Origin: Ralstonia sp. NFACC01
GTDB lineage: Bacteria; Pseudomonadota; Gammaproteobacteria; Burkholderiales; Burkholderiaceae
Assembly (NCBI RefSeq): GCF_900115545.1
Contig: NZ_FOWV01000005.1
Coordinates: 186,001-250,000 of the forward strand
Reading direction: 5' to 3'
DNA length: 64,000 nt
Position 1 is the stretch's first letter; the number at the start of each line of letters is the position of its first letter. Under the pieces are notes generated by a model. It was not told the origin of the DNA. It saw nothing but the letters and a program-made list of their open reading frames with translations, and did not search any database. Of this stretch, positions 1-33,384 are shown one piece after another. A program made the translations under genes and the position numbers.

Positions 1-669
1 CGCCTGGGGGTGATCTACACGATTGGGCCGTATCTGCTGCCCGCGCTCGTCAAGCAGATGATCGACACCGTCCCGCAGATGCCGCTGATGCTGCAGGAGA
101 ACTTCACCGTGCGGCTGGTGGAGCTGCTCAAGCAGGGCGAGATCGACTGCGCCATCATGGCCGAGCCGTTTCCCGAGGCCGGCCTGATGACGGTGCCGCT
201 GTACGACGAACCCTTTGTCGTGGCGGTGCCGCGCGGTCACGAGCTGGCCAAGGCGTCGTCGGTGGACCCGGAAGCGCTCAAGCAGCAGACCATGCTGCTG
301 CTCGGCAACGGGCATTGCTTCCGCGATCATGTGCTCGGGGTGTGCCCGGAGCTGTCGCGCTTCTCGCAGAACGCGGACGGTATTCAGAAGACGTTCGAAG
401 GTTCGTCGCTGGAAACGATCCGCCATATGGTCGCCAGCGGCGTGGGCATTACGGTGCTGCCGCGCACGTCGGTGCCCAGCATGCAGCCTGTCGCCACCGA
501 TCTGCTCAGTTACGTGCCCTTCCAGGAGCCTGTGCCCGACCGCCGCGTTGTTCTGGCCTGGCGCAAGAGCTTCACCCGCATTGCCGCGATCGAAGCGGTG
601 GCTAAGGCGGTCGCGCAATGCGAACTGCCCGGCATCAAGCTGTTGCCGCCCACCCCGCTGATTCATTGA
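1..669 (+). CDS. oxyR: OxyR peroxide-sensing LysR regulator, 3' part
   Basis: This is the C-terminal part of a LysR-type regulator; the reading frame is already open at the first base, so the helix-turn-helix end lies outside the window. The visible part is the effector/redox domain. The segment GNGHCFRDHVLGVC has two cysteines with the spacing of the H2O2-reactive pair of OxyR (Cys199/Cys208 in E. coli). The stretch VPQMPLMLQENFTVRL and the block FEGSSLETIRHMVASGVGIT are also typical of OxyR rather than generic LysR proteins. Peroxide oxidises the cysteine pair and switches the protein to an activator of catalase and Dps genes. Both targets, dps and katG, follow on the same strand, which supports the call. 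Confidence 0.9.
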   Translation, partial: RLGVIYTIGPYLLPALVKQMIDTVPQMPLMLQENFTVRLVELLKQGEIDCAIMAEPFPEAGLMTVPLYDEPFVVAVPRGHELAKASSVDPEALKQQTMLLLGNGHCFRDHVLGVCPELSRFSQNADGIQKTFEGSSLETIRHMVASGVGITVLPRTSVPSMQPVATDLLSYVPFQEPVPDRRVVLAWRKSFTRIAAIEAVAKAVAQCELPGIKLLPPTPLIH

Positions 670-31963: not shown

Positions 31964-33043
31964 TCAGTTGCCGCTGCCCGGTACCAGACGGCGCTTGCGT
32001 ACAGCGTCGGCCAGCGTTTCCAGCACCTTCACCGAATCGTCCCAGCCGATGCACGCATCAGTCACGCTCTGGCCGTAGACCAGGTCCGACACCGGCGTGC
32101 CCTGCACGTGGTCCTGGCGACCAGCGTTGATGTGCGACTCCACCATCACCCCCACGATGCGGTTGTCGCCGGCAGCCATCTGGCGGCCGATGTCTTCGCA
32201 CACCGGGATCTGGTTCTCGTGCTTCTTGCTGCTGTTGGCGTGCGAAGCGTCGATCATCAGGCGAGCGGCCAGGCCCGACTTGGAGATGGCGTCGCAGGCT
32301 TCCTGCACGCTGGCGGCGTCATAGTTGGGCGCCTTGCCGCCGCGCAGGATGATGTGGCAATCCTCGTTGCCCGCCGTCGACACGATGGCCGAGTGGCCGC
32401 CCTTGGTGACTGACAGGAAGTGGTGCGGCTGCGATGCGGCCTTGATGGCGTCCACGGCGATCTTCACGTTGCCATCGGTGCCGTTCTTGAAGCCGACCGG
32501 GCACGACAGGCCGGAAGCCAGCTCGCGGTGTACCTGGCTTTCGGTGGTGCGCGCGCCGATGGCACCCCAGCTCACCAGATCGGCGATGTACTGCGGGCTG
32601 ATCACGTCGAGGTATTCGGTGCCGGCGGGCAGGCCCAGCTCGTTGATGTTCATCAGCAGCTCGCGCGCGGTGCGCAGGCCGTCGTTGATCTTGAAGCTGC
32701 CATCCATGTGCGGGTCGTTGATCAGACCCTTCCAGCCGACCGTGGTGCGCGGCTTCTCGAAGTACACGCGCATCACGATTTCCAGCTCGTTCTTGAAGCG
32801 CTCGCGCTGCTCGACCAGGCGGCGGGCGTAGTCCATCGCTGCCTTGGTGTCGTGAATGGAGCAGGGGCCGATGATGACGATCAGGCGGTCATCCATGCCG
32901 TGCAGGATGCGGTGCATCGCGTTCCGGCTTTGGTAGATAAGGTCGGACACGGTGTCGCTGCACGGGAATTCGCGGATCAGATGCGACGGCGGCGTCAGCT
33001 CTTTCAGTTCGCGAATGCGCAAATCATCGGTGTTCTTCGGCAT
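31964..33043 (-). CDS. aroG: DAHP synthase (Phe/Tyr-type, AroG class I)
   Basis: A 359-residue class I 3-deoxy-7-phosphoheptulonate synthase, the first step of aromatic amino-acid synthesis from phosphoenolpyruvate and erythrose 4-phosphate. Family motifs include IGPCSIHD (Cys metal ligand), RVYFEKPRTTVGWKGLINDP (20 residues), SVTKGGHSAIV, and MIDASHANSSKKH. Length matches the Phe/Tyr-feedback E. coli enzymes; which amino acid inhibits this isozyme cannot be read from the sequence. A GGAG element lies before the ATG. A Phe/Tyr-rich leader peptide and an attenuator-type terminator sit upstream, so expression is probably controlled by aminoacyl-tRNA supply. Confidence 0.95.
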   Translation of the reverse strand: MPKNTDDLRIRELKELTPPSHLIREFPCSDTVSDLIYQSRNAMHRILHGMDDRLIVIIGPCSIHDTKAAMDYARRLVEQRERFKNELEIVMRVYFEKPRTTVGWKGLINDPHMDGSFKINDGLRTARELLMNINELGLPAGTEYLDVISPQYIADLVSWGAIGARTTESQVHRELASGLSCPVGFKNGTDGNVKIAVDAIKAASQPHHFLSVTKGGHSAIVSTAGNEDCHIILRGGKAPNYDAASVQEACDAISKSGLAARLMIDASHANSSKKHENQIPVCEDIGRQMAAGDNRIVGVMVESHINAGRQDHVQGTPVSDLVYGQSVTDACIGWDDSVKVLETLADAVRKRRLVPGSGN

Positions 33044-33146
33044 GGAAAGCTCCGGGGATGTGTCTTGAGTTCTATTGGAAACGTCTACTGTGTTCGGATC
33101 ATGTTTCGCGTCGGTGCCGGGGTGGGGCAGGTGACTGGGCGAAAAA

Positions 33147-33173
33147 AAAACCGCCAGGGTCGCTGGCGGTTTT
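33147..33173 (-). terminator. Attenuator terminator hairpin upstream of aroG
   Basis: An 11-base perfect stem (AAAACCGCCAG / CTGGCGGTTTT on the minus strand), five-base loop and nine consecutive T in the transcript sense. It lies about 100 bases before the aroG start, not after a gene, which is why it is read as an attenuator. It could also stop read-through from tldD, 260 bases upstream. Confidence 0.85.
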
Positions 33174-33191
33174 CGGTATCTGCTGGGTGCT

Positions 33192-33275
33192 TTATTTTTG
33201 CTGCAAGCGCCCCTCTCCTTCCGCCAGCGGTGCGAGATGCCAAAAGTAAAAGTAAAAAAACTTGGCGAAGGACAT
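33192..33275 (-). CDS. aroG leader peptide, Phe/Tyr/Trp rich
   Basis: A 27-residue ORF beginning MSFAKFFYFYFWHL and ending RLQQK. Eight of its first twelve residues are aromatic: Phe3, 6, 7, 9 and 11, Tyr8 and 10, Trp12. That composition at this place, before a terminator and an aromatic-pathway gene, is the signature of a ribosome-mediated attenuator. I see no good Shine-Dalgarno before the ATG, the main weakness of the call. The ORF contains segments 1 and 2 of the attenuator RNA. Confidence 0.75.
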   Translation of the reverse strand: MSFAKFFYFYFWHLAPLAEGEGRLQQK

Positions 33276-33355
33276 GAGAGGAAAACGAGTCGATGCAGGA
33301 AAAATTGTGGCGCAGAGGTGACTTGAAACTACTGCGCCGCACCAATCGAACCGTC

Positions 33356-33384
33356 TTTATAAACCCTTTCTTTGAGGGCCGCAA
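33356..33384 (-). promoter_or_regulatory. Probable sigma-70 promoter of the aroG leader
   Basis: On the minus strand, TTGCGG (33384-33379) and TATAAA (33361-33356) are separated by exactly 17 bases. Transcription would start near 33350, about 75 bases before the leader peptide. Confidence 0.5.

Follow-up and report, generated by a model that had tools for sequence, protein, structure and literature searches.

The logic of the Escherichia coli trpL leader rests on four RNA segments, 1–4, of which segment 2 is masked by the translating ribosome; trpL carries Trp codons, precedes the trp operon, has a clear ribosome-binding site and places its stop codon between segments 1 and 2. The element described here shares this logic, but differs in having Phe and Tyr codons ahead of aroG, the gene for a DAHP synthase, and in lacking a Shine-Dalgarno sequence. 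It also resembles the E. coli pheL-pheA and pheST systems, which combine a Phe-rich leader with competing hairpins and a terminator (as outlined in the available part of PMC11802643). There the gene is a different one, whereas here the run of codons mixes Phe and Tyr (in some cases with Trp), again without a Shine-Dalgarno sequence.

Attenuation of a DAHP synthase gene is known, and the sole precedent found in the open literature is actinobacterial. In Corynebacterium glutamicum, a leader peptide with Phe-Tyr-Phe, aroR, precedes the DAHP synthase gene aroF (excerpts of PMC11802643 and PMC4046766), and read-through increases when the ribosome stalls under Phe limitation (Neshat et al., 2014, as cited in the available part of PMC11802643). 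The F-Y-F motif of that system is short, whereas the run here has six to eight residues; the two were compared by description only. In Sinorhizobium meliloti, the trpL leader-peptide mRNA is leaderless, its 5′ end being the start codon (according to the part of PMC7298713 available), as we predict below for several families; that RNA, rnTrpL, concerns Trp and trpE(G), whereas the leader described here has a 5′ UTR of about 75 nt. The ilvBNC operon of Corynebacterium has also been discussed as leaderless (excerpt of PMC11857589).

For gammaproteobacterial lineages, a large regulon study describes, in the part available, how these genes are controlled by transcription factors (PMC5343134). Among the matches listed for open PubMed Central papers, none described attenuation of a proteobacterial aroG, and the word aroG was absent from the main text of the papers examined on start sites and small RNAs of Burkholderia cenocepacia, of two Sinorhizobium papers and of a survey of premature terminators. 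Table S3 of PMC5688073, with 82 short 5′ UTRs of B. cenocepacia, may list the leader.

The window, by which we mean the whole 64-kb stretch of DNA analysed, comes from a genome of 5.37 Mb and contains the attenuator region on its minus strand, with tldD upstream and aroG downstream. Both gene names had been proposed from the sequence in a first-pass annotation, and protein family matches bear them out: the aroG product (359 aa; 31964..33043, minus strand), which is the predicted target of regulation, matches the NCBIfam AroG equivalog NF006723 at 590 bits (cut-off 568) and Pfam DAHP_synth_1, and the upstream neighbour matches TldD. Ralstonia pickettii SSH4 has the identical AroG (100%). The host genome encodes a second DAHP synthase (L002, G000:C16:824196-825239), 59% identical to the first, and the 450 nt upstream of it contain no ORF with more than three aromatic residues in ten. 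A search of plasmid records with the leader DNA of the window found no match.

The leader ORF (33192..33275, minus strand) has 27 codons and encodes MSFAKFFYFYFWHLAPLAEGEGRLQQK; translation confirmed that eight of its first 12 residues are Phe, Tyr or Trp, as the annotation had it. The putative control codons, F6 F7 Y8 F9 Y10 F11 W12, occupy 33240..33260 on the same strand. Runs of Phe and Tyr are not enriched in the host genome, which has 12 such sites against 17 for the backward control pattern. At the eight other sites there is no short ORF that begins ahead of the run and has a terminator downstream of it. The evidence therefore rests on conservation and not on the run itself.

We then compared the locus with the best 80 of 584 confirmed AroG matches, from a scan that took one genome per species. 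These include Ralstonia, Cupriavidus, Burkholderia, Paraburkholderia, Caballeronia, Trinickia, Pandoraea, Mycetohabitans, Robbsia, Pararobbsia, Herbaspirillum, Collimonas, Janthinobacterium, Massilia and others, some being metagenome bins, and we take them to belong to Burkholderiaceae and Oxalobacteraceae. A homologous aromatic ORF, with an ATG start and at least five Phe, Tyr or Trp residues in twelve, is present at all 80 fetched loci, so that the conservation expected for Ralstonia, Cupriavidus and Burkholderia was found and the element reaches beyond these genera. Measured from the ATG nearest the run, the leader starts 164–282 nt upstream of aroG. The peptides of Burkholderiaceae have the core KFYFYFFWHLxPLADREG, those of Oxalobacteraceae YFYFSYSSPxAVEKR.

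Among leaders of the common type (41, with 31 distinct sequences), the codons for FYFYFF vary at five of six third positions, one of six second positions and no first position. From this position pattern, a descriptive count, we judge the conservation of the aromatic run to be of the coding type; taken by itself, the third-position contrast between the run (5/6) and the codons of segment 2 (1/4) does not reach significance (p 0.19). Phe is encoded by TTT in 286 of 353 cases in the leaders and by TTC in 442 of 497 in aroG of the same loci, a preference that might reflect slowing at rare codons or a requirement that the RNA stay unstructured. In two leaders, from Caballeronia megalochromosomata (L024) and Candidatus Burkholderia humilis (L034), the frame shifts just past the aromatic run; the peptide ends differ and the RNA segments are kept.

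Upstream of the leader, a −35 hexamer TTGCGG (33379..33384) and a −10 hexamer TATAAA (33356..33361), separated by a 17-nt spacer, can be read on the minus strand. From these, transcription is predicted to start near 33349–33351, giving the 5′ UTR of about 75 nt. The intrinsic terminator, formed by segment 4 and a T run, lies at 33142..33157 on the same strand, with nine T at 33150–33142, four of which are paired in the stem. Generic promoter and terminator scans of the window returned neither of these two signals. On our reading of the scan rules, the promoter was missed because TTGCGG matches TTGACA at just three of six positions, and the terminator because a G-T pair extends the stem and leaves fewer than five T. 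The promoter is nevertheless conserved: TTGnnn-16..18-TATAWW was found upstream of the leader at 58 of the 79 loci with enough sequence, as against ten of 1580 shuffles. The −10 box of the conserved promoter lies a median of 38 nt from the leader ATG (range 35–152).

The lack of a Shine-Dalgarno sequence had been named as the weak point of the locus. The absence is real, but it is common to 78 of 80 leaders: an anti-Shine-Dalgarno duplex of −4.5 kcal/mol or better precedes two of the 80 leaders, 78 of the 80 aroG starts and 8% of shuffled upstream stretches. It is therefore no defect peculiar to the window copy. At six Paraburkholderia loci (L015, L026, L027, L029, L032 and L035), the leader frame stays open for about 30 codons further upstream, through the promoter region, and a longer ORF is possible there.

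The promoter, the leader ORF, the terminator and four RNA segments all lie on the minus strand where the annotation had placed them. Segment 1 (CCTTCGCCA, 33263..33271) can pair with segment 2 (CGCTGGCGGAAGG, 33229–33217, including the stretch CGCTGGCGG at 33221..33229), segment 2 through a GGCGG core with segment 3 (AAAACCGCCAGCG, 33161..33173), and segment 3, common to antiterminator and terminator, with segment 4 (CTGGCGGTTTT, 33147..33157). The helix energies in the window are −6.1 kcal/mol for 1:2 (−8.2 when extended), −15.2 for 2:3 and −16.0 for 3:4. Folding of the 214-nt leader RNA, which had been proposed as a check, was favourable: the fold is 3.7 standard deviations better than those of dinucleotide shuffles, none of 200 being as good. 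The 134-nt core alone has a less remarkable fold (z −1.75, 11 of 200 shuffles).

In 57 leaders of the Burkholderiaceae type, 99.8% of cells are paired for 3:4, where two pairs, with 11 cells, show two-sided changes; for 2:3 the figure is 98.9%, with one-sided G-U changes only. The exclusive pairings 2:3 and 3:4 of the first-pass annotation thus stand. The third that it named, 1:2, is the least conserved, with 91.2% of cells paired and no two-sided change in any pair, and a local hairpin over segment 2 (33214..33237, minus strand; UCUC:GAGA and CCG:CGG) had been overlooked. This hairpin is paired in 99.7% of cells; being nearly invariant, it shows no covariation. The RNAalifold consensus picked it in place of 1:2, and the Oxalobacteraceae alignment has a comparable hairpin, 1:2 there seeming by eye to be replaced by other pairings. 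The alignments omit L045, L049 and L066, which duplicate other loci, and the window takes the place of L003.

Because segment 3 pairs with both segment 2 and segment 4, its covariation is constrained, and we therefore made the comparison across families. Of 50 diverse leaders, 46 have exact cores GGCGG/CCGCC/GGCGG for segments 2/3/4 in aligned columns. Beside the cores, 19 of these 46 carry the flanking triple U-A-U, from six family labels, and ten carry C-G-C, from five. The flanking pair forms for 3:4 in 43 of 46 and for 2:3 in 33 (it fails in 13), with both forming in 32; the association gives Fisher p values of 8e-5 for 2:3 and 6e-10 for 3:4, uncorrected for kinship. Segments 2, 3 and 4 thus covary three ways across families, so that the covariation sought in relatives was found there as well as in the two-sided changes of 3:4.

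To place the ribosome on these structures we used a model in which its footprint is masked at each codon and the transcript is folded up to segment 3, at equilibrium and ignoring kinetics. Seventy-six leaders were modelled; L064 was dropped, its segments not being located. With the middle of three footprints, the probability of 2:3 exceeded 0.5 at 466 of 509 Phe/Tyr stall positions, and with the smaller and larger footprints at 473 and 459 of 509 respectively. The codon at which 2:3 is switched off lay between −1 and +3 codons from the last Phe/Tyr codon in 73 of 76 leaders (middle footprint). The mean 2:3 probability at Phe/Tyr codons was below 0.6 in five of the 76. With the ribosome at the stop codon, segment 2 was masked in 50 of 76 leaders, or 33 with the smaller footprint. 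In untranslated RNA the antiterminator was favoured in 60 of 76 leaders, unlike textbook superattenuation; the remaining 16 are L067 and 15 leaders from the Oxalobacteraceae alignment.

For the window leader with its 5′ UTR, the modelled probability of 2:3 is 0.97–1.00 at codons 6–10, and no value above 0.05 was obtained at any of the six codons sampled over 11–24. The last Phe, codon 11, belongs to the off state when the 5′ UTR is included and to the on state when it is left out. When the ribosome rests on the stop codon, segment 2 is free and 2:3 reaches 0.97. The stop codon lies far downstream, and with segment 2 free there, termination would depend on timing, with the ribosome still travelling along the leader at the moment segment 3 appears.

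Ribosome stalling, the amino acids sensed and the size of the effect are what we infer from these data. The transcript would start near 33349, and a ribosome would begin to translate the leader. Under a shortage of Phe or Tyr, the ribosome would stall within codons 6–10, with codon 11 borderline, and leave segment 2 exposed; segment 2 would then pair with segment 3, no terminator would form and aroG would be transcribed. If both amino acids are plentiful, the ribosome would move past codon 11 to about codon 24 and cover segment 2 just as segment 3 appears; in its wake, 1:2 or the local hairpin would form again. Segment 3 would then pair with segment 4 and transcription would stop before aroG. 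In the folding model, the decisive event appears to be the exposure or masking of segment 2 by the ribosome. The exact version given by the first-pass annotation is that termination needs the 1:2 helix, with the segment just past the start codon. The window leader with its 5′ UTR is in agreement with this: with codons 11–13 in the A site, 1:2 forms at about 0.7. We nevertheless consider the requirement unlikely, since 1:2 is the least conserved pairing, is seemingly replaced in Oxalobacteraceae, and direct masking of segment 2 yields a switch in the model.

The occurrence of the element was then surveyed within Burkholderiales. A covariance model built from the 57 leaders matched in 38 of 200 genomes, and by coordinate comparison 35 of the 38 matches are followed within 300 nt by a DAHP-synthase gene in the same orientation. 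Three matches lie elsewhere (L097, L098 and G013:C1); the first two, weak matches that we read as sequence, proved to be plain terminators without an aromatic ORF and were rejected. We surveyed 131 of the 154 genomes with a DAHP-synthase match; at L122, the upstream stretch ends at a contig edge. An aromatic leader was present in all 22 genomes that were chosen by model match and read as sequence. Among 109 genomes scored by their upstream stretch, 22 had at least five aromatic residues in ten together with a terminator, and two more had four. By the main criterion, the element is thus present in 44 of 131 genomes and 14 of 33 family labels, and 87 of 131 genomes are without it. The same scoring returned none of 360 mononucleotide shuffles, none of 120 reverse complements and none of 11 second DAHP-synthase copies. 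Absence is common, and includes small genomes of the window's own family (G031 and G076). At two loci of one family (f23; L099 and L100, in G152 and G022), two tandem DAHP-synthase genes follow a single aromatic leader.

The start signals of leaders from other families differ from those of the window. An anti-Shine-Dalgarno duplex at the −4.5 kcal/mol cut-off precedes four of 42 such leaders and is lacking in 38. A TANNNT box ends 6–9 nt before the ATG in 21 of the 42, from eight family labels, as against 5% of shuffles, and none was found at 0–5 or 10–21 nt; in 13 of the 21 leaders with this close −10 box, a TTG −35 at 15–19 nt is also present. We therefore predict leaderless transcripts for these leaders. 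At the 80 fetched AroG loci, no −10 box was placed for a leaderless start. In the folding model, 278 of 300 aromatic stalls in the other-family leaders exceeded 0.5, by a looser measure in which every pairing of segment 3 with upstream sequence is counted and the antiterminator is thereby overestimated; 13 of 42 mask segment 2 at the stop codon. The alignment of these leaders (A3) holds 36 of the 42, omitting L101, L102, L109, L117, L125 and L168.

Neither the window nor any of ten relatives matched an Rfam family at the gathering threshold. The best match of the leader below threshold is RF01859, Phe_leader, over its full length and at the same place (24.3 bits, E 0.076), and Phe_leader also appears below threshold in two of six relatives (L065, 32.0 bits; L061, 27.1 bits), with no match listed for the other four. 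We rejected membership in RF01859, as the score falls short of the gathering score of 55; the element would work like a Phe leader but is not filed under that family. No NCBIfam family was found for five leader peptides and no Pfam family for three.

Could the RNA sense a ligand or a protein directly, as a riboswitch or binding-protein attenuator with an incidental ORF? The nearly invariant hairpin over segment 2, the missing Shine-Dalgarno sequence and the antiterminator already favoured without translation in 60 of 76 leaders would fit such a mechanism. We nevertheless regard it as very improbable: the aromatic run varies at five of six third positions and hardly elsewhere, the pattern on which we rejected a riboswitch working without translation, while families differ in their RNA flanks, spacer lengths and peptide ends and neither the window nor the ten relatives hold an Rfam family at the gathering threshold. 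It is more doubtful still that the terminated leader RNA or the peptide acts also or mainly in trans, in the manner of Sinorhizobium rnTrpL/peTrpL. That precedent exists (available part of PMC7298713), and termination would yield an RNA of about 210 nt, but the peptide end past the aromatic run tracks RNA segment 2 and differs between families, and the peptides tested match no NCBIfam (five) or Pfam (three) family. In addition to attenuation, such a role may still exist. Finally, an ordinary tldD terminator with a chance aromatic ORF, aroG being transcribed from elsewhere, is barely credible even though the terminator lies about 260 nt past the tldD stop on the same strand and the segment 3/4 hairpin scores weakly on the other strand too, because a promoter stands between tldD and the terminator, nothing comparable occurs in shuffles or before 11 paralogues, and the conservation across families of ORF, antiterminator and control-codon placement, for which we rejected a plain tldD terminator, makes it unlikely.

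The conserved ORF, the third-position pattern and the three-way covariation together make a ribosome-mediated attenuator sensing Phe and Tyr the highly probable reading, one that would tune AroG to the supply of charged tRNA-Phe and tRNA-Tyr. The ORF with its coding-type conservation, the exclusive pairings with their covariation, the promoter and the link to aroG are seen directly in the sequence and in the comparison. The proposal that trp/phe-type logic is applied here to a DAHP synthase is supported by the conserved ORF, the covarying pairings and the conserved promoter, and its operation would agree with the modelled ribosome positions. Against the attenuator count the failures of masking at the stop codon, the antiterminator default of untranslated RNA, the lack of a Shine-Dalgarno sequence and the patchy occurrence, and also the five leaders with a low mean 2:3 probability, the one-sided changes and failing flanking pairs of 2:3, and the Rfam score short of the gathering score.

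The attenuator also occurs outside the order. With a second covariance model, built from 50 diverse leaders and counting full-length matches with E ≤ 1.1e-9, two of 274 genomes of a class sample and 14 of 200 of a phylum sample were matched; together these matches comprise three genomes from one other family of Gammaproteobacteria (f63) and 11 that belong to another class (f242, f245 and f249). Weaker matches, from E 9.5e-6 upward, were not counted; most cover the terminator part of the model and some the whole of it. All 14 out-of-order loci, read as sequence, carry an aromatic leader, for example MIHLTASFWYFYYSSLAAGGLRSI and MNAAATRFYWYYFPKPLAEEGLRSP; an AroG-type ORF follows the leader in 12 and is present in the other two. 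By script, a −10-like box lies 6–7 nt before the ATG at five of 12 out-of-order loci; at four more a TATAT box, by eye, overlaps an earlier in-frame ATG, and the rest have weaker boxes.

Among the Alphaproteobacteria, Paracoccus ferrooxidans (CP038201.1, E 1.1e-9) and P. denitrificans (NC_008688.1, E 5.3e-10), both matched in a 5.4-kb search, have a leader, MSHRMPCTISFYWFRCPQRSRV, with just four aromatic residues in ten. In Paracoccus (L294 and L295), aroG and its leader are on plasmids of 650–835 kb and adjoin a gene for 5-formyltetrahydrofolate cyclo-ligase.

In a 24-row AroG tree, the proteins of f63 and of the other class group with a family of the window's order (f4) with support 99/98, the root being arbitrary and three branches long. 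This grouping hints that gene and leader may have been transferred together. A broader scenario, which we offer tentatively as possible but doubtful, is that one ancient aromatic attenuator travels with aroG across Pseudomonadota. Its original form would have been leaderless, reading both aromatic-tRNA charging and the capacity for leaderless initiation, and Burkholderiaceae and Oxalobacteraceae would later have gained a 5′ UTR without a Shine-Dalgarno sequence, the untranslated state coming to mean read-through in Burkholderiaceae and termination in many Oxalobacteraceae.

The attenuator belongs to the known trp/phe kind; its distribution is wide but patchy and its start signal unusual. It is a conserved RNA element with no Rfam match at the gathering threshold and with clear predictions, and its relatives form a natural set for the study of leader peptides that lack a Shine-Dalgarno sequence or have leaderless starts. 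It also offers an engineering target for aromatic production in Cupriavidus, Paraburkholderia and rhizobia. The entry step of the shikimate pathway would have RNA-level control in many betaproteobacteria and in some alphaproteobacteria.
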